DNA of 64,000 nucleotides from Bacteroidota bacterium (GTDB lineage Bacteria; Bacteroidota; Bacteroidia; UKL13-3). Both the position numbers and the translations under genes were made by a program. The notes under the pieces were generated by a model. That model saw nothing but the letters and a program-made list of their open reading frames with translations, had not been told where the DNA came from and searched no databases. Positions 18,481 through 25,633 of this stretch are shown here, in pieces; the first letter of the stretch is position 1, and each line of letters starts with the position of its first letter. Location: assembly GCA_947457395.1 (NCBI GenBank), contig CANGVA010000012.1, positions 22,767 through 86,766 on the forward strand, read 5' to 3'.

Positions 18481-21378
18481 ATGAAACGTAAGTTTTTAAC
18501 AGGAATTGTGGCACTGTTTCTTGGCGTGGCAATACAGGCGCAAACCCCTGCACCTGCTCAGGCCGATCCAAACCAGCCGCAACTAATTGAAAAGGTTACC
18601 GCCAAACCGGGAGAATTGGCTATAGCCTATGAGAAATGGCGCCTACCTAATGGCTTGGTTGTTATAGTGCATGAAGATCATTCTGATCCGATTGTTCACG
18701 TAGACGTAACCTATCACGTTGGTTCTGCCAGAGAAACTCCAGGCAAATCAGGTTTTGCTCACTTTTTTGAACACATGATGTTTCAAGGATCTGACCACGT
18801 AGCTGATGAGGAACATTTTAAAATTGTAGAAGGTGCCGGTGGTGATATGAATGGTACAACCAACCGTGACCGTACCAATTATTTTGAAACACTTCCTAAA
18901 AACTATCTGGAAACCGCTTTATGGCTAGAGGCCGACCGCATGGGTTATCTGTTAGACGCTGTTACACAGAAAAAATTTGAGGTACAGCGCGCCACTGTTA
19001 AAAACGAGAAAGATCAGCGTGTAACAAACGTACCTTACGGCCGCACCGATGAAATAAAAGATCAAATTTTATACCCTGCCAAACATCCATACAACTGGCC
19101 AACCATTGGTTATGTTGAGGACCTTGACCGTGTTAATGCAGAAGACCTGAAAAATTTCTTTATGCGCTGGTATGGCCCTAACAATGCCAGTCTGGTTGTT
19201 GCCGGTGATGTTGATCCTAAAGATGTGGTAAAACTCGCAATGAAATATTTTGGCCCAATTCCACGCGGACCTGAGGTTAAAAATTTGCCAAAAACCCCTG
19301 TTCGTTTGCCGGATAATGTGTATGCAAATTATGGCGACAATGTATTCCTTCCATTAACCTATATCGTTTATCCGGGGGTTGCCAATTATCATCCGGATGA
19401 AGCTCCGCTGGATATTCTAGCATCTATTTTAGGTGATGGAAATAATTCTTGGCTGTATCAGAAATTGGTAAAAACTGAAAAGGTTTTCCAGGCTGAGTGT
19501 TTTAACCCGTGTTTTGAACTGGCCGGAGAATTTACTTTTCAAGTGCTATCCTACCCTGCCATGATGCAGGAAGAACCTGCCAATCCGGAAGACCTGCTAA
19601 AGAATGTATTGGATGAGTTTGACCGCACAGGAATTACAGATGAGGAACTGAGCCGTGCCAAAGCCAAATTTGAAACCCAGGCTGTACAAAGCCTGCAAAG
19701 CATTGGTGGAAAAGCTGCACAATTAAGCATGTGGAATTACCTGCTACCCAACAAAAGTGTAAACGTGCAGGATGAGATTAACCGTTATAATAAAGTAACC
19801 AAAGAGGATGTAATGCGTGTTTTCCGCACCTATATTAAAGGTAAGTATGCCGCCATTGTTAATGTATTCCCTAAGGAGGCCAATGCCGCATCAACCAAGG
19901 AAGAAACCAAACTGGCTAATTCTTCCGGAGTTGCCTCATCAGAATTGGAATACAAAGGACTCAGCTATACAAAACCGAAAGACAACTTTGACCGAAGCAA
20001 AAAGCCTGAAATCAAAGGTTCGGTAACCCCTGTGGTACCAAAAATTTACTCAGCCAAATTTGATAATGGTATGAATGTATTGGGAACACAAAACAGTGAG
20101 TTACCATTGGTTACCATTATGCTTACCATGAAAGGTGGTAATGTGGTTGTAAATGATCCTGCAAAATCCGGACTTGCTTTGCTAACTGCATTTATGATGG
20201 GTGAAAGCACCCAAAATTATACATCAGAGCAATTTAATGCTGAACTGGATAAACTTGGCAGCAGTATTAGTTTTAACGCAAGCAAAGAAAATACGAGTGT
20301 AATGGTTACCTGCCAGAAGAAAAACCTGGATAAAACACTTCAGTTGTTTGAAGAAGCCTTGTTAAGACCTAAATATACTGCAGAAGATTTTAAACTAAAG
20401 CAGCGCCAACTTGCCGAGCAGATTAAAGCCAATAGCCGTCAGGCAGGTGATATGGCCGGTAAAGCATACAGCAAATTATTGTATGGTAAGTCAATTTTTG
20501 CGGAGCCCGTAACCGGAAGTATTAAAACCATCAAAGGAATGTCTATTAAAGATGTACAATCGTATTACGATAAGTACTACTCTCCTACTGTTGCATCTCT
20601 TGTAATTGTGGGTGATGTTGCTGAAACCGACATTATGCCTAAACTTCAGTTTCTTAAAAATTGGGGCAAAAAAGAAGTGGTTCTTCCTAAACCACCTGTT
20701 GCTGAGGTTCAAACCAAACAACAGATTTATTTAATCGATAAGTACAAAGCCACACAAACTGAGATTCGCGTTGGTTATCTGGCTCTTCCATATGATTATA
20801 ATGGTAAATTCTTCAAATCAAATGTGATGAATTATCCTTTGGGTGGTAACTTTAATAGCCGTTTAAACCTGAATTTAAGGGAGGAAAAAGGTATTACTTA
20901 TGGCATTCGTTCAGGCTTTCAGGGTACTTATAACCCGGGCACTTTTACAGTTGGCGTAGGTGTAAGGGCATCTGCAACTGATACTGCTGTTCGTGAAATC
21001 ATGAATGAGATGGTAAATTATCGTGCAAAAGGTATAACAGAAGAGGAATTGGCATATGCTAAAAAATCGTTGACCCAAAGCGATGCACTGCGCTATGAAA
21101 CCATTTTTGACAAAGCAGGATTCCTGAACCAAATTGCCTACTATAACCTTCCAACTGACTATATTGATCAACAAAACAAAACATTACAGGAAATTACCAA
21201 ACAGGAAATAGATGCACTTGCCAAAGAAATGCTGGCAATTGAAAAGATGGTAATTGTGGTGGTTGGTGACAAAGATAAAATTAAGTCAAATCTTGATAAA
21301 CTTGATTTTGGTGGTCAGCCGGGTTATAAATCACCTTTGGGAACCTATAAAGTAGTTGAGTTAAAACCTGAAGAATAA
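18481..21378 (+). CDS. Secreted M16 family zinc peptidase, two-domain
   Basis: A 965-residue protein with a signal peptide (ending AIQAQ) and two M16 (insulinase/pitrilysin) halves. The first half has the inverted zinc motif H-x-x-E-H in FAHFFEHMMFQG (about residues 93-104) and a downstream glutamate in VKNEKDQR. The second half (from about 520) has the same fold but no H-x-x-E-H, as is usual for the inactive partner lobe. It should degrade peptides in the periplasm or outside the cell. The 223 nt before it, AT-rich, contain no recognised regulatory element. A strong terminator follows. Confidence 0.93.
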   Translation: MKRKFLTGIVALFLGVAIQAQTPAPAQADPNQPQLIEKVTAKPGELAIAYEKWRLPNGLVVIVHEDHSDPIVHVDVTYHVGSARETPGKSGFAHFFEHMMFQGSDHVADEEHFKIVEGAGGDMNGTTNRDRTNYFETLPKNYLETALWLEADRMGYLLDAVTQKKFEVQRATVKNEKDQRVTNVPYGRTDEIKDQILYPAKHPYNWPTIGYVEDLDRVNAEDLKNFFMRWYGPNNASLVVAGDVDPKDVVKLAMKYFGPIPRGPEVKNLPKTPVRLPDNVYANYGDNVFLPLTYIVYPGVANYHPDEAPLDILASILGDGNNSWLYQKLVKTEKVFQAECFNPCFELAGEFTFQVLSYPAMMQEEPANPEDLLKNVLDEFDRTGITDEELSRAKAKFETQAVQSLQSIGGKAAQLSMWNYLLPNKSVNVQDEINRYNKVTKEDVMRVFRTYIKGKYAAIVNVFPKEANAASTKEETKLANSSGVASSELEYKGLSYTKPKDNFDRSKKPEIKGSVTPVVPKIYSAKFDNGMNVLGTQNSELPLVTIMLTMKGGNVVVNDPAKSGLALLTAFMMGESTQNYTSEQFNAELDKLGSSISFNASKENTSVMVTCQKKNLDKTLQLFEEALLRPKYTAEDFKLKQRQLAEQIKANSRQAGDMAGKAYSKLLYGKSIFAEPVTGSIKTIKGMSIKDVQSYYDKYYSPTVASLVIVGDVAETDIMPKLQFLKNWGKKEVVLPKPPVAEVQTKQQIYLIDKYKATQTEIRVGYLALPYDYNGKFFKSNVMNYPLGGNFNSRLNLNLREEKGITYGIRSGFQGTYNPGTFTVGVGVRASATDTAVREIMNEMVNYRAKGITEEELAYAKKSLTQSDALRYETIFDKAGFLNQIAYYNLPTDYIDQQNKTLQEITKQEIDALAKEMLAIEKMVIVVVGDKDKIKSNLDKLDFGGQPGYKSPLGTYKVVELKPEE

Positions 21379-21400
21379 TATTGTATGTTGAAACCGCTCA

Positions 21401-21436
21401 AAGAGGCTGTCCTTTAATTGGACAGCCTCTTTTTTT
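21401..21436 (+). terminator. Intrinsic terminator of the M16 peptidase gene
   Basis: A perfect 12-bp stem (AAGAGGCTGTCC pairing with its complement), 7-nt loop and a T tract start 22 nt after the stop codon. The left direct repeat of the island begins 5 nt beyond it. Confidence 0.92.
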
Positions 21437-21441
21437 AAAAG

Positions 21442-21560
21442 AATAAAATAAATTGTTTACAGTTCATAACGCTAAAATTTTCAAACAAAGGTGGGTGGTG
21501 TTTCAAGCATTATATGACTAGTTCAACTTGTGCGGGATAAGCGGGAACGGGAGGGGTATG
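21442..21560. repeat. Left direct repeat (R1) of the accessory island
   Basis: About 119 bp that recurs in the same orientation at 24141-24260. The first 42 positions are identical; after that roughly 13 differences occur in the next 70 aligned positions. It is noncoding, contains an imperfect stem (TCATAACGCT with AGCATTATATGA) and lies downstream of the last island gene. Confidence 0.85.
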
Positions 21561-21592
21561 ATCGTCCCCGTTTGAAATAATTAGGACCTTAT

Positions 21593-22582
21593 TCATTTAA
21601 CTACATAATTTGGAGGCAATGGCAAGTTTTTTATTTTACGTTCTATTTCGATGGGCATTAAACCTATTTCCGCTCTGCGTTTATTAACGTTTTCGGGATC
21701 AAGTAGAGGATAATTTATAAATTCTTTTCCATACCAATATCGAGGTATACCATATAGTGCCACACTGTCGGCATCAAGTGAATAATCCATGCAATAGGCA
21801 AAATCGTTAGGTTCATATTCGCCCAACAGAACTTGTTTTTTTAGCATTGAATCCAAAAACAAAAAACGTTCTTTCTCAAAATTACTTGCAGTAGCATCAG
21901 CGTATTTAAAAACATGAATTAAGAATGCACTAGAGTATAGATCTTTCCCCCCTAAGCTTTTTCTTCCCGGAAACCCGTACTCTTGGCAGTAATTTTGAAA
22001 TCGTATAAAGTTAGTACTGTCAACGTTATGAATAATTTCAGATCGTGCTGCCCTGTAGACACTATCATTATGCATGTACTTTTTAAAAGGGCGCAATGTT
22101 CCATCGCGGACAAGCTGATCAGAAGCATCGATAGATGCCATTAGCCTTAAATTATTAAAGTTATAATTTTTCTCATTCTCAGCTATCCATTTCGGGAAAT
22201 TGTATAAATATTTTTTGCCATAAGCAGAATGAATAAAGCCATCATACAATTGTTTGCCAAACAGCTGATCAAGAGCAAACCAACCTGTGTTTAATACTTT
22301 TTGCTCGATAAACCAATACGTGAGTTTATATTTTCTTTGAGTAAGCGTTAACTCTATAGGTGTGTAATAATCTACTTCGAATCCGGCAAAGTTTTTAAAC
22401 GCGAGTAAATAAGTATTAATAGCTGATGATGTATCTTTTTCGTATAACTCTACCTCTGCATCATTTATAAGTTTATAATAGTCTAAATAGTTTGCCGTTT
22501 TATTTTGTGCTATACCTGAATATGATAAACAAGCAGTCAACCATATTAATACTATTTTATATAATCTCAATTTTATAATCAT
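21593..22582 (-). CDS. Secreted DUF6624-like protein
   Basis: A 329-residue protein with a signal peptide (MIIKLRLYKIVLIWLTACLS, cleavage near IAQ). The second half follows the DUF6624 pattern: NVDSTNFIRFQNYCQEYGFPG, a glycine turn, SSAFLIHVFKYAD, then FAYCMDYSLDADSVALYGIP. No function is established for that family; members are often secreted or lipoproteins in Bacteroidota. Start taken at 22582, which places an intact signal peptide at the N-terminus and a conserved 19-nt block 4 nt upstream. It is the last gene of the island's minus-strand series. Confidence 0.55.
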   Translation of the reverse strand: MIIKLRLYKIVLIWLTACLSYSGIAQNKTANYLDYYKLINDAEVELYEKDTSSAINTYLLAFKNFAGFEVDYYTPIELTLTQRKYKLTYWFIEQKVLNTGWFALDQLFGKQLYDGFIHSAYGKKYLYNFPKWIAENEKNYNFNNLRLMASIDASDQLVRDGTLRPFKKYMHNDSVYRAARSEIIHNVDSTNFIRFQNYCQEYGFPGRKSLGGKDLYSSAFLIHVFKYADATASNFEKERFLFLDSMLKKQVLLGEYEPNDFAYCMDYSLDADSVALYGIPRYWYGKEFINYPLLDPENVNKRRAEIGLMPIEIERKIKNLPLPPNYVVK

Positions 22583-22586
22583 AATT

Positions 22587-22605
22587 TCTTTGCGGTTTAT
22601 CAATC
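22587..22605 (-). promoter_or_regulatory. 19-nt leader element, copy A
   Basis: The minus-strand sequence GATTGATAAACCGCAAAGA lies 4 nt before the DUF6624-like ATG. An identical copy is at 24095-24113, 3 nt before the precursor ATG. The stop codon of the LanC-like fragment falls inside this copy. It may be a shared ribosome-entry or leader sequence, or a recombination footprint. Confidence 0.55.
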
Positions 22606-22899
22606 CATTATGTAACTTCTAATTAATTTTCGATATAAAAAATAAAAACCACCAAGTCCGTCATGTAAAGATGTTGAGGCCTCCTTGTTAACTATTATCT
22701 CTGAAATAGCACCATTAAATAGTTGAATGCACTTGTATATGTATTTTTCGTCATTACTTGAAGTATATCTGTAAAAATAGTATAAACATACACCCCACAA
22801 TTGACGAAGTTCTTCTTGATTTTTCCTCTCAGTTTTCTCCTCTAGCTCTCGTTCAATATTGCATAAAAGCGAGGCTAAATTCGATGTGTTTTTGGGCAT
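22600..22899 (-). CDS. LanC-like N-terminal fragment (possible broken gene)
   Basis: A 99-residue, helix-rich reading frame. Its spacing of hydrophobic and aromatic residues, LYYFYRYTSSNDEKYIYKC then SLHDGLGGFYFLYRKL, resembles the first two helices and the GL-x-G-(I/F) turn at the N-terminus of Bacteroidota LanC-like lanthionine cyclases, which run to about 400 residues and carry zinc-binding Cys/Cys/His much later. Nothing of that C-terminal part is present: the frame stops inside the 19-nt leader element of the next gene. It is therefore probably a truncated gene, or a small protein of its own. Resemblance judged by eye. Confidence 0.45.
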   Translation of the reverse strand: MPKNTSNLASLLCNIERELEEKTERKNQEELRQLWGVCLYYFYRYTSSNDEKYIYKCIQLFNGAISEIIVNKEASTSLHDGLGGFYFLYRKLIRSYIMD

Positions 22900-22954
22900 A
22901 TATTATTACAAACTTCAGTTAAATTTTCCTGTTAATGCAAACGCAAAGAATTAC

Positions 22955-23728
22955 TTAATTAGTTTCAAATATTGATTTCTTTGCTTTTGTTTGTTCCTTG
23001 AGTGTTCGCTCATCTGTTATTCCCAAAGCATCTTCAAAAGTATGCTGCATAACCCCTGGCTGTAAGCCGCTATTGTAAAGTATTTTTACACAGGCCAAAT
23101 CCATAGGCCCATAACAAGTATCAGCAAAATAATCAGAAAAAACAGTGTGTCTTTCGTGCTCCGAGTCTTTAAAAATGCCAAGCACTTGCGTTATTTCTTG
23201 AATTATAATAAATTTTTGATGGTACGGAGTTGATATGTCAGTTGGTAACACAACATCCATCTTAGTAAGTATTTTGTTGTCATAAATTCTTGGAATTACA
23301 CATCCGCCCGCAGTTGGATAATATCTATCCGGCATATTATTTTTCCATTCCTCATCTGTCCAAAAATAAATTGAAATGGAAGTAGGCTTAGTGGTATCCG
23401 GTTCAAATACTAAATGGTTAAATTCTAAGGTAGCATTAAGGGTATCAATCGTTTTAAACAAAAACCTTAAGTTGTCACTACTCGGGTGGCCTATAATTTT
23501 AAAGGTTATTGTATCCTCTAAAAATTTGTAAGTATAATCGCCAGTGCTGTTATGCTCATGTCCAAAACCAACAGTAGTAAAGTAAAATATTTCTTTGTAG
23601 GTAAAATTTGATAGAATGTACTGTTGGGTTTGTTCAGATACTTGCTTATAATTTATAATTATTTGCGCGTATCTAAATAAAAACAGTACAAATACTACTA
23701 CCAATGATATTTTTATTGCTCTTTTCAT
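22955..23728 (-). CDS. Membrane-anchored DUF2927 family protein (putative peptidase)
   Basis: A 257-residue protein with one N-terminal hydrophobic anchor (about residues 5-24) and a DUF2927-like domain. The diagnostic C-terminal half is visible: IIIQEITQVLGIFKDSE, a VFSD turn, then PMDLACVKILYNSGLQPGV, matching the family's E-(E/x)-x-x-Q-x-LGL-x-ND and LD-x3-(L/I)-x-x-LY-x-(P/S)-x-L-x-PGM pattern. DUF2927 has been thought zincin-like, but activity is not established; the catalytic histidine motif is not obvious here. Its place between a GG-leader peptide and a LanC-like piece suggests peptide processing or cargo, by inference. Confidence 0.7.
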   Translation of the reverse strand: MKRAIKISLVVVFVLFLFRYAQIIINYKQVSEQTQQYILSNFTYKEIFYFTTVGFGHEHNSTGDYTYKFLEDTITFKIIGHPSSDNLRFLFKTIDTLNATLEFNHLVFEPDTTKPTSISIYFWTDEEWKNNMPDRYYPTAGGCVIPRIYDNKILTKMDVVLPTDISTPYHQKFIIIQEITQVLGIFKDSEHERHTVFSDYFADTCYGPMDLACVKILYNSGLQPGVMQHTFEDALGITDERTLKEQTKAKKSIFETN

Positions 23729-23736
23729 AAGAATAG

Positions 23737-23766
23737 TTGCAGTGGCATTTTTTTATGCCACTGCAA
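23737..23766 (-). other. Strong hairpin between precursor gene and DUF2927 gene
   Basis: A perfect 12-bp inverted repeat (TTGCAGTGGCAT and its complement) with a 6-nt loop lies 4 nt after the precursor stop and 8 nt before the next start. It lacks a T tract in the direction of transcription, so it is better read as an mRNA-stabilising or attenuating hairpin than a full terminator. Confidence 0.75.
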
Positions 23767-23770
23767 TTAA

Positions 23771-24091
23771 TTAATAAGGTTTGATACAAATGAATGCACC
23801 ATTTGGTATGTTAACATTTGTATTATCTAATTGACCAGTTTGTTTTTGGTTTAATGGAACATACTCAGATTTTGGACCTTCCTGATATGGGCATCCCCAA
23901 TATGAGTTAGCTTTAGCTGCATCATTAACTATTGTTGCGTAACCATAAGCTTCAGTTAAACATTTGAATGAAGATTCTTTCGTGGCTTGGACTATTGTTC
24001 CGGTTCCCCCATGAACTTGATTAAGTTGCATTTCGTTAAGTAATTCAATTGTCTCTTTGTTCAACTGCAATTTAAATTTCTTGTTTTTCAT
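23771..24091 (-). CDS. GG-leader natural-product (RiPP-type) precursor peptide
   Basis: A 106-residue peptide. The first 29 residues, MKNKKFKLQLNKETIELLNE then MQLNQVHGG, match the leader of the Bacteroidota class I lanthipeptide / GG-leader precursors: basic start, L-x-L-x-K-E-T-I-x-x-L, and a double glycine before a core. The 77-residue remainder has three cysteines (in FKCLTE, WGCPYQ, FICIKP) and many Ser/Thr, so it could be ring-forming, though it is longer than usual cores. Start is taken at 24091 by the leader pattern; a TTG 24 nt upstream is less likely. No LanB, radical SAM or PCAT transporter is in the window. Confidence 0.65.
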   Translation of the reverse strand: MKNKKFKLQLNKETIELLNEMQLNQVHGGTGTIVQATKESSFKCLTEAYGYATIVNDAAKANSYWGCPYQEGPKSEYVPLNQKQTGQLDNTNVNIPNGAFICIKPY

Positions 24092-24094
24092 TTC

Positions 24095-24113
24095 TCTTTG
24101 CGGTTTATCAATC
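24095..24113 (-). promoter_or_regulatory. 19-nt leader element, copy B
   Basis: Identical to copy A at 22587-22605; it lies 3 nt before the precursor ATG. The shared position relative to two start codons suggests a translation-related or 5'-UTR function. Flanking bases differ between the copies. Confidence 0.55.
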
Positions 24114-24140
24114 AAAACCTGCTGAAAACTTTAGGTTAAA

Positions 24141-24260
24141 AATAAAATAAATTGTTTACAGTTCATAACGCTAAAATTTTCAGGCAAAAGTGGGTGGTGT
24201 CTCACGCATTATATGGCTAGTCCCACTTGAACGAGATGCGCGGGAACGGGGTGGGGAATG
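24141..24260. repeat. Right direct repeat (R2) of the accessory island
   Basis: About 120 bp, same orientation as R1 at 21442-21560. It lies upstream of the precursor gene, so any promoter of the island may overlap it; TTTG on the minus strand at 24185-24188 could be a -33 element, but no matching -7 box was seen. The next 200 bp (24261-24460) contain no reading frame or structure I can name. Confidence 0.85.
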
Positions 24261-24460
24261 GAAGGGAGCTAGAGAAGAACCACTGCCCATAACAGCAATC
24301 TTGGGTGATTACCGTTAACACTCTTAATCTAACCTTTCCTTTCCGCATTATTATTTATCATGGCTGCCGGTTTACAATACGCCTCCCTATAATTATCGGT
24401 TGGCATCTAATGTAAAGTTGCGAAACGTTATGCTTTACACTAATAGTGGTTTAGGCCCAT

Positions 24461-24490
24461 AAAAAAAGCTGCCTTCATGAAGGCAGCTTT
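24461..24490 (-). terminator. Intrinsic terminator of dnaN
   Basis: A perfect 26-nt palindrome (24465-24490, AAAGCTGCCTTCA and its complement) followed on the minus strand by seven T's, 21 nt after the dnaN stop codon. Confidence 0.92.
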
Positions 24491-24511
24491 CGCAATATTA
24501 AATTACTTTTA

Positions 24512-25633
24512 TTAATAGCTGTTAAGCATCATTGGCATCACCAGCATCAGGATGTCTTCTCCATCATCTGCAGCAGAAGGCCTAAGCACCCCTGCCCTGT
24601 TAGGCTGAGACATTTCAAGGCGCACCTCCGGTGAATCAAGAGAATTTAACATCTCGGATAGGTATTTAGAGTTAAATCCAATCTCCAAATCTTCACCTTC
24701 ATAGGAGCACTTTAACTTCTCTTGTGCCTCATTTTCAAAGTCAATATCTTCAGCAGAAATGGTTAACTCACTACCTGCGATCTTTAAACGAATTTGATGG
24801 GTAGTTTTGTTGGATGTAATGGATACACGCTTTACCGAAGTAAGAAACTCATTGCGATCCATGGTAAGCATGTTAGGATTTTCGGTAGGAATGACTGCTT
24901 TATAATCAGGATATTTCTCATCAATCAATCGGCAAATCAAACTTAAATCAGCAGTTGAGAAATGTGCATTGGAACGGTTAAAATCAATAGTAACTTCTGT
25001 ATCATCATTTGGCAAGGCCGACTTTAGCAGGTTAAGTGCCTTCTTAGGAAGAATAAAGGAATCTTCTACACCAGGCTTAACATCTACCCTATTGTATCTC
25101 ACCAAACGATTCGCATCCGTTGCAACAAATGTAATATCGCTTGTACTTAGTTGAACTAATACACCTGTTAAATTTAAACGCAACTCATCATTACTGGTTG
25201 CAAAAACGGTTTTCGTAATAGCCTTTTGCAATACTTTAGAAGGTATGGTAAATTTCTTTCCATCCTCAACAACAGGATTCTTAGGGAATTCATCTCCCTT
25301 CTGAGCCGTTAATTTAAACCGCCCTGAATCATATTTAATCTCAACAGCCCCCTTTTCTGTATTGATAGAAAAAGCCAATGGCTGGTCGGCCAGTGTTTTT
25401 AGTAGATCAAGCGTAGTTTTGGATGGAATAGCAATGGATACGTCCTCTTTGGCATCCACTTTGATTCCGGTGGTCATCGTAGTTTCCAGATCAGTTGAAG
25501 AAATCTTCAACTCACCATTTTTAATATCAAATAAAAAGTTGTTTAGAATGGGAATAATAGGTTTAGATACCACCACTCCGTCAATTAACGAAAGGTGTTT
25601 GAGCAAAGTAGTACTGTTAACTATAAATTTCAT
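24512..25633 (-). CDS. dnaN: DNA polymerase III beta subunit (sliding clamp)
   Basis: A 373-residue processivity clamp with the three-domain repeat of the family. Recognisable are the N-terminus MKFIVNSTTLLKHLSLIDGVV, LRLNLTGVLVQ at the domain boundary, SLICRLIDEKYPDY, and the C-terminal DILMLVMPMML, which matches the conserved (V/L)-x-M-P-M-(R/M)-L peptide-binding edge; R is replaced by M here. It encircles DNA and tethers polymerases and MutS, whose gene is at 51.3-53.9 kb. It is not next to dnaA. The 262 nt upstream hold no gene I would support. Confidence 0.95.
   Translation of the reverse strand: MKFIVNSTTLLKHLSLIDGVVVSKPIIPILNNFLFDIKNGELKISSTDLETTMTTGIKVDAKEDVSIAIPSKTTLDLLKTLADQPLAFSINTEKGAVEIKYDSGRFKLTAQKGDEFPKNPVVEDGKKFTIPSKVLQKAITKTVFATSNDELRLNLTGVLVQLSTSDITFVATDANRLVRYNRVDVKPGVEDSFILPKKALNLLKSALPNDDTEVTIDFNRSNAHFSTADLSLICRLIDEKYPDYKAVIPTENPNMLTMDRNEFLTSVKRVSITSNKTTHQIRLKIAGSELTISAEDIDFENEAQEKLKCSYEGEDLEIGFNSKYLSEMLNSLDSPEVRLEMSQPNRAGVLRPSAADDGEDILMLVMPMMLNSY

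Follow-up and report, generated by a model that had tools for sequence, protein, structure and literature searches.

Among described systems, the class I lanthipeptide clusters of Bacteroidetes are the closest to the locus treated here. As far as the available part of the published account goes, these clusters show the leader motif LxLxKx5L, often together with Gly-Gly and often with a C39 protease, and the pinensins were the only isolated Bacteroidetes class I lanthipeptides at that date (PMC7268733). In the present work we analyse a block of four genes situated between the genes for an M16 peptidase and dnaN in a window of 64,000 nucleotides, the whole stretch of DNA studied (G000:C12:22767-86766). 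The G000 assembly has 34 contigs and 2.54 Mb and is 99.96% complete; the genomes compared with it are likewise cited by G numbers. The block is bounded by two direct repeats. Our interpretation, to which we would give a probability of about three in four, is that it is a decayed, horizontally acquired cluster of class I lanthipeptide type for a ribosomally synthesized and post-translationally modified peptide (RiPP), and that the repeats are copies of its promoter-like leader. We prefer a decayed peptide cluster to a unit moved by its repeats because the repeats copy a stretch that elsewhere precedes the precursors of modified peptides.

Repeats and genes of the block

The preliminary description of this DNA had reported direct repeats of about 120 bp, identical at their first 42 positions and about 88% alike overall, that enclose four genes of the same direction. 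This picture holds with small corrections. The repeats, at 21439-21556 (copy 1) and 24138-24255 (copy 2), are 118 bp each and 86% identical (102 of 118 positions) with a longest identical run of 42 bases, and between them lie four open reading frames (ORFs), all on the minus strand. A query of the whole G000 assembly with copy 1 returns two places, both in the window, so the sequence is not a many-copy dispersed intergenic repeat, an option that had also been raised. The imperfect stem ascribed to each copy is, in turn, weak. Folding of both copies as single-stranded DNA, on both strands, gave nothing better than shuffled sequences (z 1.55, 0.17, −0.22 and 0.01), and the repeats were on this ground rejected as attC sites or stable stems. 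The sole inverted pair in the block (21 nt, 81%) lies away from the ends, where the repeats are direct and not inverted.

The likely nature of the repeats is suggested by their occurrences elsewhere. An exact scan of the species-genome collection with a 22-base core finds three further stretches, two in G003 and one in G130. In G003 the repeat stands before a precursor of the window type and, on a second contig, before a precursor accompanied by an ATP-grasp enzyme (TIGR04192 above cut-off) and a DUF6624 protein, and in G130 it stands before a further precursor. Joined to the repeat is a conserved leader of 35 nt that ends 7-9 nt ahead of the ATG. Copy 2, on the minus strand, is the upstream, promoter-like half of such a RiPP leader (type A). 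It is followed by the universal leader at 24089-24150 (minus strand), which runs into the precursor start codon and scores 86.9 bits (E 8.5e-14) with our 62-nt model R1, the window copy being one of the 17 sequences used to build that model. Copy 1, also on the minus strand, is just the upstream half of the element whose beginning is copy 2; it stops immediately short of the universal part and directly adjoins the M16 terminator.

The gene behind the leader (23771-24091, minus strand) encodes a class I lanthipeptide-type precursor of 106 amino acids (aa) with a Gly-Gly leader (NF038153 lant_leader_L1a, 32.2 bits, cut-off 22), in which the motif LQLNKETIELL fits LxLxKx5L. It has 11 homologs, among which the core is conserved, the closest being 92% identical. 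This closest homolog (P0001) sits in another assembly, on a contig of 47.5 kb, and the block or its parent cluster is therefore present elsewhere. The remaining genes, all on the minus strand, encode a DUF2927 protein of 257 aa (22955-23728; PF11150, 51.4 bits, cut-off 26.2; 65% identity to its G003 counterpart), an N-terminal fragment of LanC (22600-22899; 99 of about 378 aa, with 40% identity to the beginning of LanC in G003, which is 378 aa long, and a weak, below-cut-off PF05147 match of 15 bits) and a DUF6624-like protein of about 329 aa from its ATG (21593-22582; PF20329, 21.1 bits as scored from residue 5 on, the first four residues being left out). For the DUF2927 protein, a structure search by sequence gave a single weak match (E 0.047), which was not used. 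DUF6624 proteins are present in grasp-with-spasm operons as well. Family scans of the four genes revealed no transposase or integrase family, in agreement with the preliminary description.

At the LanC break, where the next gene starts, BLAST detects what remains of another leader, from its 3′ end (22578-22604, minus strand), with 92.6% identity to a G058 leader over 27 nt (E 0.009) and 82% to a G055 leader over 45 nt (E 0.003). Because the LanC homology extends to 22622 and the remnant begins at 22604, LanC appears to be cut at this remnant. In G003, which belongs to another genus, the precursor (70%), the DUF2927 protein (65%) and LanC (40%, 378 aa) all have homologs, arranged in the same order and followed by DUF6734. 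The operon order precursor, DUF2927, LanC recurs at the loci L044, L096 and L138 and in the window, with DUF6734 next in G003 and G057. The relatives of the window precursor have as neighbours LanC and an exporter in G003, and LanC, helix-turn-helix (HTH) and exporter genes in G014. The G014 LanC is likewise cut, to 117 aa (L138, 7531-7884), and adjoins two ORFs that we take to be transposase-like, which would be a parallel decay.

Several parts of an intact cluster were not found in G000. There is no PF04738 match for LanB, no PF05147 match at E ≤ 0.001 for a complete LanC (7 of the 64 family genomes have one), and no C39 exporter at E ≤ 1e-150 among the 16 of 34 candidates scored. ATP-grasp and SPASM maturases are not among the four block genes, the remainder of G000 not having been searched for them.

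A leader before several peptide classes

We now turn to the leader itself. A 30-nt pattern of it, with up to three mismatches, has 18 matches in 10 of the 64 family genomes, and in 395 class genomes, own family included, it occurs only in G000, G058 and G130; the reversed control gave 0 in both cases. A DNA search of the class genomes returned 11 at E ≤ 0.001. Only G000, G130 and G058 are element-like here, the matches in the other eight being about 20-45 nt and not leader-like in sequence. The repeat search also gave a single match of 39 nt in G042. A leader covariance model finds 22 copies in 12 of the 64 genomes (the scan at the order level covered as many genomes as that at the family level), and a targeted search adds one leader each in G130 and G014, for a total of 24. 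The one in G014 is divergent (39.8 bits) and precedes a relative of the precursor. One of the 24 is cut by a contig end, and 15 of the 23 with downstream sequence stand ahead of short ORFs whose translations resemble precursors, with Gly-Gly in 14 of them and Gly-Ala in one. NF038153 is above cut-off in six tested precursors (the window, G003, G010, G056 and two in G057) and below it in G130, and the precursors adjoining ATP-grasp enzymes and one adjoining LanM gave no family match.

The operons behind the leader are those of class I lanthipeptides, of class II lanthipeptides (LanM) and of grasp-with-spasm peptides, in addition to genes for small secreted proteins. LanB (PF04738) is present in G003, G010, G014, G056 and G057, that is, 5 of the 64 genomes, and LanM in G062 (TIGR03897, 413 bits, cut-off 304). 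The grasp-with-spasm families TIGR04192 in G003 and TIGR04193 in G058 exceed the NCBIfam cut-offs, and BLAST relatives of the ATP-grasp enzyme occur in G053, G055 and G062. As to the secreted-type proteins, those at L092:4841-5233, L098:10031-10435, L100:3494-3874 and L123 have by eye a common GYxNxxETH...C..PGxExCxW-like motif, looser in L123; one protein with this motif was scanned against Pfam and gave no match.

The divergent neighbour of the leader is either a Cro/CI-type HTH gene (G003, G130, G062, G014) or a LuxR-type response regulator gene (e.g. G010, G056, G057, G062), followed in most clusters by a C39 ABC exporter and then HlyD. On visual inspection, the upstream half of the leader seems to track the regulator type: the element GCTGTGAAGCA is found in the HTH clusters of G003, G130 and G062, and a palindrome resembling TTGTATTACAA in several clusters with a response regulator. 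The C39 exporter (E ≤ 1e-150) is present in 8 of the 64 genomes, 7 of the 12 with a leader as compared to 1 of the 52 others (Fisher p 9e-6, ignoring relatedness). The single exporter genome outside the leader set is G014, later found to hold the divergent leader, and moving it changes the table to 8/13 and 0/51 (p 2.9e-7, post hoc).

In contrast to its surroundings, the 35-nt block is strongly conserved. Its mean pairwise identity is 92% in 19 of 21 leaders, two with a one-base shorter loop being omitted, as compared to 32-47% in the adjacent 35-nt windows upstream and 31-43% downstream. A 7-bp hairpin with a bulged A is predicted at 24100-24122 (minus strand), its base being 8 nt before the start codon. 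The pairing GC-A-GGUUU / AAACC-GC is preserved in 99.4% of 160 cells, with at most 44.6% for slid versions, the structure having been derived from the same sequences. In 21 of 21 leaders an ATG lies 7-9 nt beyond the stem; in G050 that ATG opens six codons and a stop, and a longer ORF begins further downstream. While the conservation is strong, we regard the RNA structure as no more than plausible, since changes are scarce and folding is at best modestly under shuffles. A coding function was also considered, as the leader is often in frame to the precursor (xIDKPQREM). Leaders differ, however, in their frame relative to the ATG, and two of them have the one-base shorter loop, so this option was rejected.

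What the leader does can be approached in two ways. In our main interpretation it would be transcribed and fold into the short hairpin with the bulged A, and one trans-acting factor could then tune the translation of precursors of different chemistries jointly. In a wider version, which we propose tentatively and well short of even odds, it would be a family-wide RiPP leader RNA, a conserved hairpin in the 5′ untranslated region whose bulged A is invariant and whose loop reads UGAnnnAY. Through it a single trans-acting protein or small RNA would gate the translation of class I and II lanthipeptides, grasp-with-spasm peptides and small secreted proteins from any promoter and for any chemistry. 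Exported peptides would then form a regulon controlled at translation, of which the window retains one intact and two broken leader copies. It is, however, quite possible that the universal leader works as DNA and not as an RNA element, as an operator or part of a core promoter for a common regulator. The leader is palindromic (GC-A-GGTTT / AAACC-GC), four of its seven pairs are invariant, which is equally expected of a DNA dimer site, and RNA folding is scarcely better than shuffles. The constant spacing to the ATG argues against a DNA element, as do the facts that the regulator varies among clusters but the block does not, that stem bases are lost on both sides together in G014, and that a pair is kept as G-U in G039.

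Probable insertion and decay, and alternative explanations

In G049, the sole same-genus genome compared, the M16 and dnaN genes (95.5% and 97.3% identical) lie next to each other. Their stop codons are about 140 bp apart, the corresponding distance in the window being 3,133 bp, and the interval lacks the repeat as well as all four genes. At nine other dnaN loci M16 never adjoins dnaN, and these are uninformative on the site because M16 lies elsewhere there. The G+C content of the coding part of the block is 32.9%, as compared to 39.3% for the window, which places it at the bottom among 2.5-kb windows. The sequence comparison supports an island origin, with a block that looks acquired. The gain of a unit proposed in the preliminary description is thereby supported, M16 and dnaN being adjacent in G049 and three of the four genes having homologs that stand together in G003. 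The proposed movement or loss by way of the repeats found no such support.

Under that proposal the repeats would delimit a unit able to move or to be deleted, with recombination between them shifting or excising the block. Two 86% direct repeats do surround it, the block is missing from G049, and a RecA-type deletion between the repeats is possible. However, G049 shows no single-repeat scar, and in G003 and G130 the repeat stands before precursor genes and surrounds no unit, so repeat-driven mobility is not supported. Further points against it are the lack of a transposase or integrase family in the four genes and the absence of matches by blastn to plasmid and phage collections; viral contigs do not contain the exact core pattern either. 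We rejected this as the principal explanation and consider it very improbable. Another scenario is that the cluster arrived as a large integron-type cassette of which the right flank is the attC site. This flank (24272-24382, plus strand) resembles segments just outside the HlyD end of the RiPP clusters in G062 (84% over 113 columns) and G130 (80% over 112 columns), and most of it is held in an imperfect inverted repeat of about 145 bp with an attC-like layout (24288-24432, plus strand), which, with its orientation unchanged, also lies 3′ of HlyD in G062 and G130. The arms of the window copy, however, pair poorly, the left end is a truncated leader and no attC, and G000 has no integron integrase above the family cut-off (TIGR02249, best 109.5 bits, cut-off 265). 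The sole one above it in the 64 genomes is G005:C58:1439-2200. We find a cassette hard to believe in. The block might also be a small operon that is complete as it stands and makes a secreted peptide for which LanB, full LanC and the C39 exporter are not needed. The precursor and the DUF2927 gene are intact, the precursor core is conserved across the 11 homologs, and certain leaders precede small secreted-type proteins. But the precursor retains the class I lanthipeptide leader (NF038153), its relatives adjoin LanC and exporter genes, and LanC is broken at the leader remnant, which makes this option unlikely.

We return to the decayed cluster. Its intact layout would have on one side a divergent Cro/CI-type HTH or LuxR-type regulator, the C39 exporter and HlyD, and on the other a regulator-matched promoter region, the universal leader, the precursor and the maturation genes. 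Such a cluster would have been inserted between M16 and dnaN and then have suffered three deletions. Since the right flank matches segments outside HlyD, a first deletion may have taken the HTH-exporter-HlyD arm, whose place would have been between the right flank and copy 2. A second would have removed the missing part of LanC together with LanB and TolC and have ended at the 3′ end of a second leader. The third would have taken all that lay past the upstream half of a third leader; this half is copy 1, which would thereby have come to adjoin the M16 terminator. Paired regulatory leaders can in this manner be mistaken for the terminal repeats of a mobile unit.

Some observations weigh against our interpretation, including its RNA part. 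The same-genus comparison rests on one genome, and the DUF6624 call is sub-threshold (21.1 bits, cut-off 27). Because the attC-like element is dispersed (11 places in 9 of the 64 family genomes, beside accessory-type genes, with an integron integrase lacking in most), the position of the right flank beside HlyD could be a coincidence. A distant C39 exporter would escape detection, given the threshold and the number of candidates scored. Behind eight of the 23 leaders lie small ORFs of the secreted type, which begin like signal peptides and are not RiPP precursors; one of them is just 32 aa long. Finally, the covariation amounts to a single two-sided change, in G014, and a single G-U pair, in G039, and is matched by 17 of 500 shuffles, and RNA folding of the leader is weak relative to shuffles (z −1.40, −1.18, −0.72, −0.33 and −2.56, −0.09, −2.68, −1.32).

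Comparison with known systems

What is new here is the leader that three RiPP chemistries share, which is undescribed as far as Rfam and the literature searched show. Rfam 15 gave seven weak matches in the window at 21300-24600, each under its gathering score, and none at six leader loci. A literature search on RiPP and lanthipeptide leader motifs in Bacteroidota and on grasp-with-spasm, covering few subscription journals, found no such leader. RiPP clusters are found via enzymes or precursor peptides, and a short common leader would be an additional handle by which orphan precursors, such as that of the window, could be found. Its presence in three chemistries would indicate a common control step for exported peptides.

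A single attC site without an integrase is termed a SALIN. The window may resemble it in having an inverted repeat of attC-like layout in a genome without an integron integrase above the family cut-off, and differs in having no second site and no left cassette boundary. With the Bacteroidetes class I lanthipeptides the window precursor shares LxLxKx5L and Gly-Gly, and its relatives are accompanied by LanB, LanC and the C39 exporter, whereas the window cluster is without LanB, most of LanC and the exporter; the available part of the published account does not mention a leader common to other RiPP classes (PMC7268733). Unlike the grasp-with-spasm systems (TIGR04192, TIGR04193), the block has no ATP-grasp and SPASM enzymes. 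It shares with them the DUF6624-type proteins and, in the operons of G003, G053, G055, G058 and G062, the universal leader.

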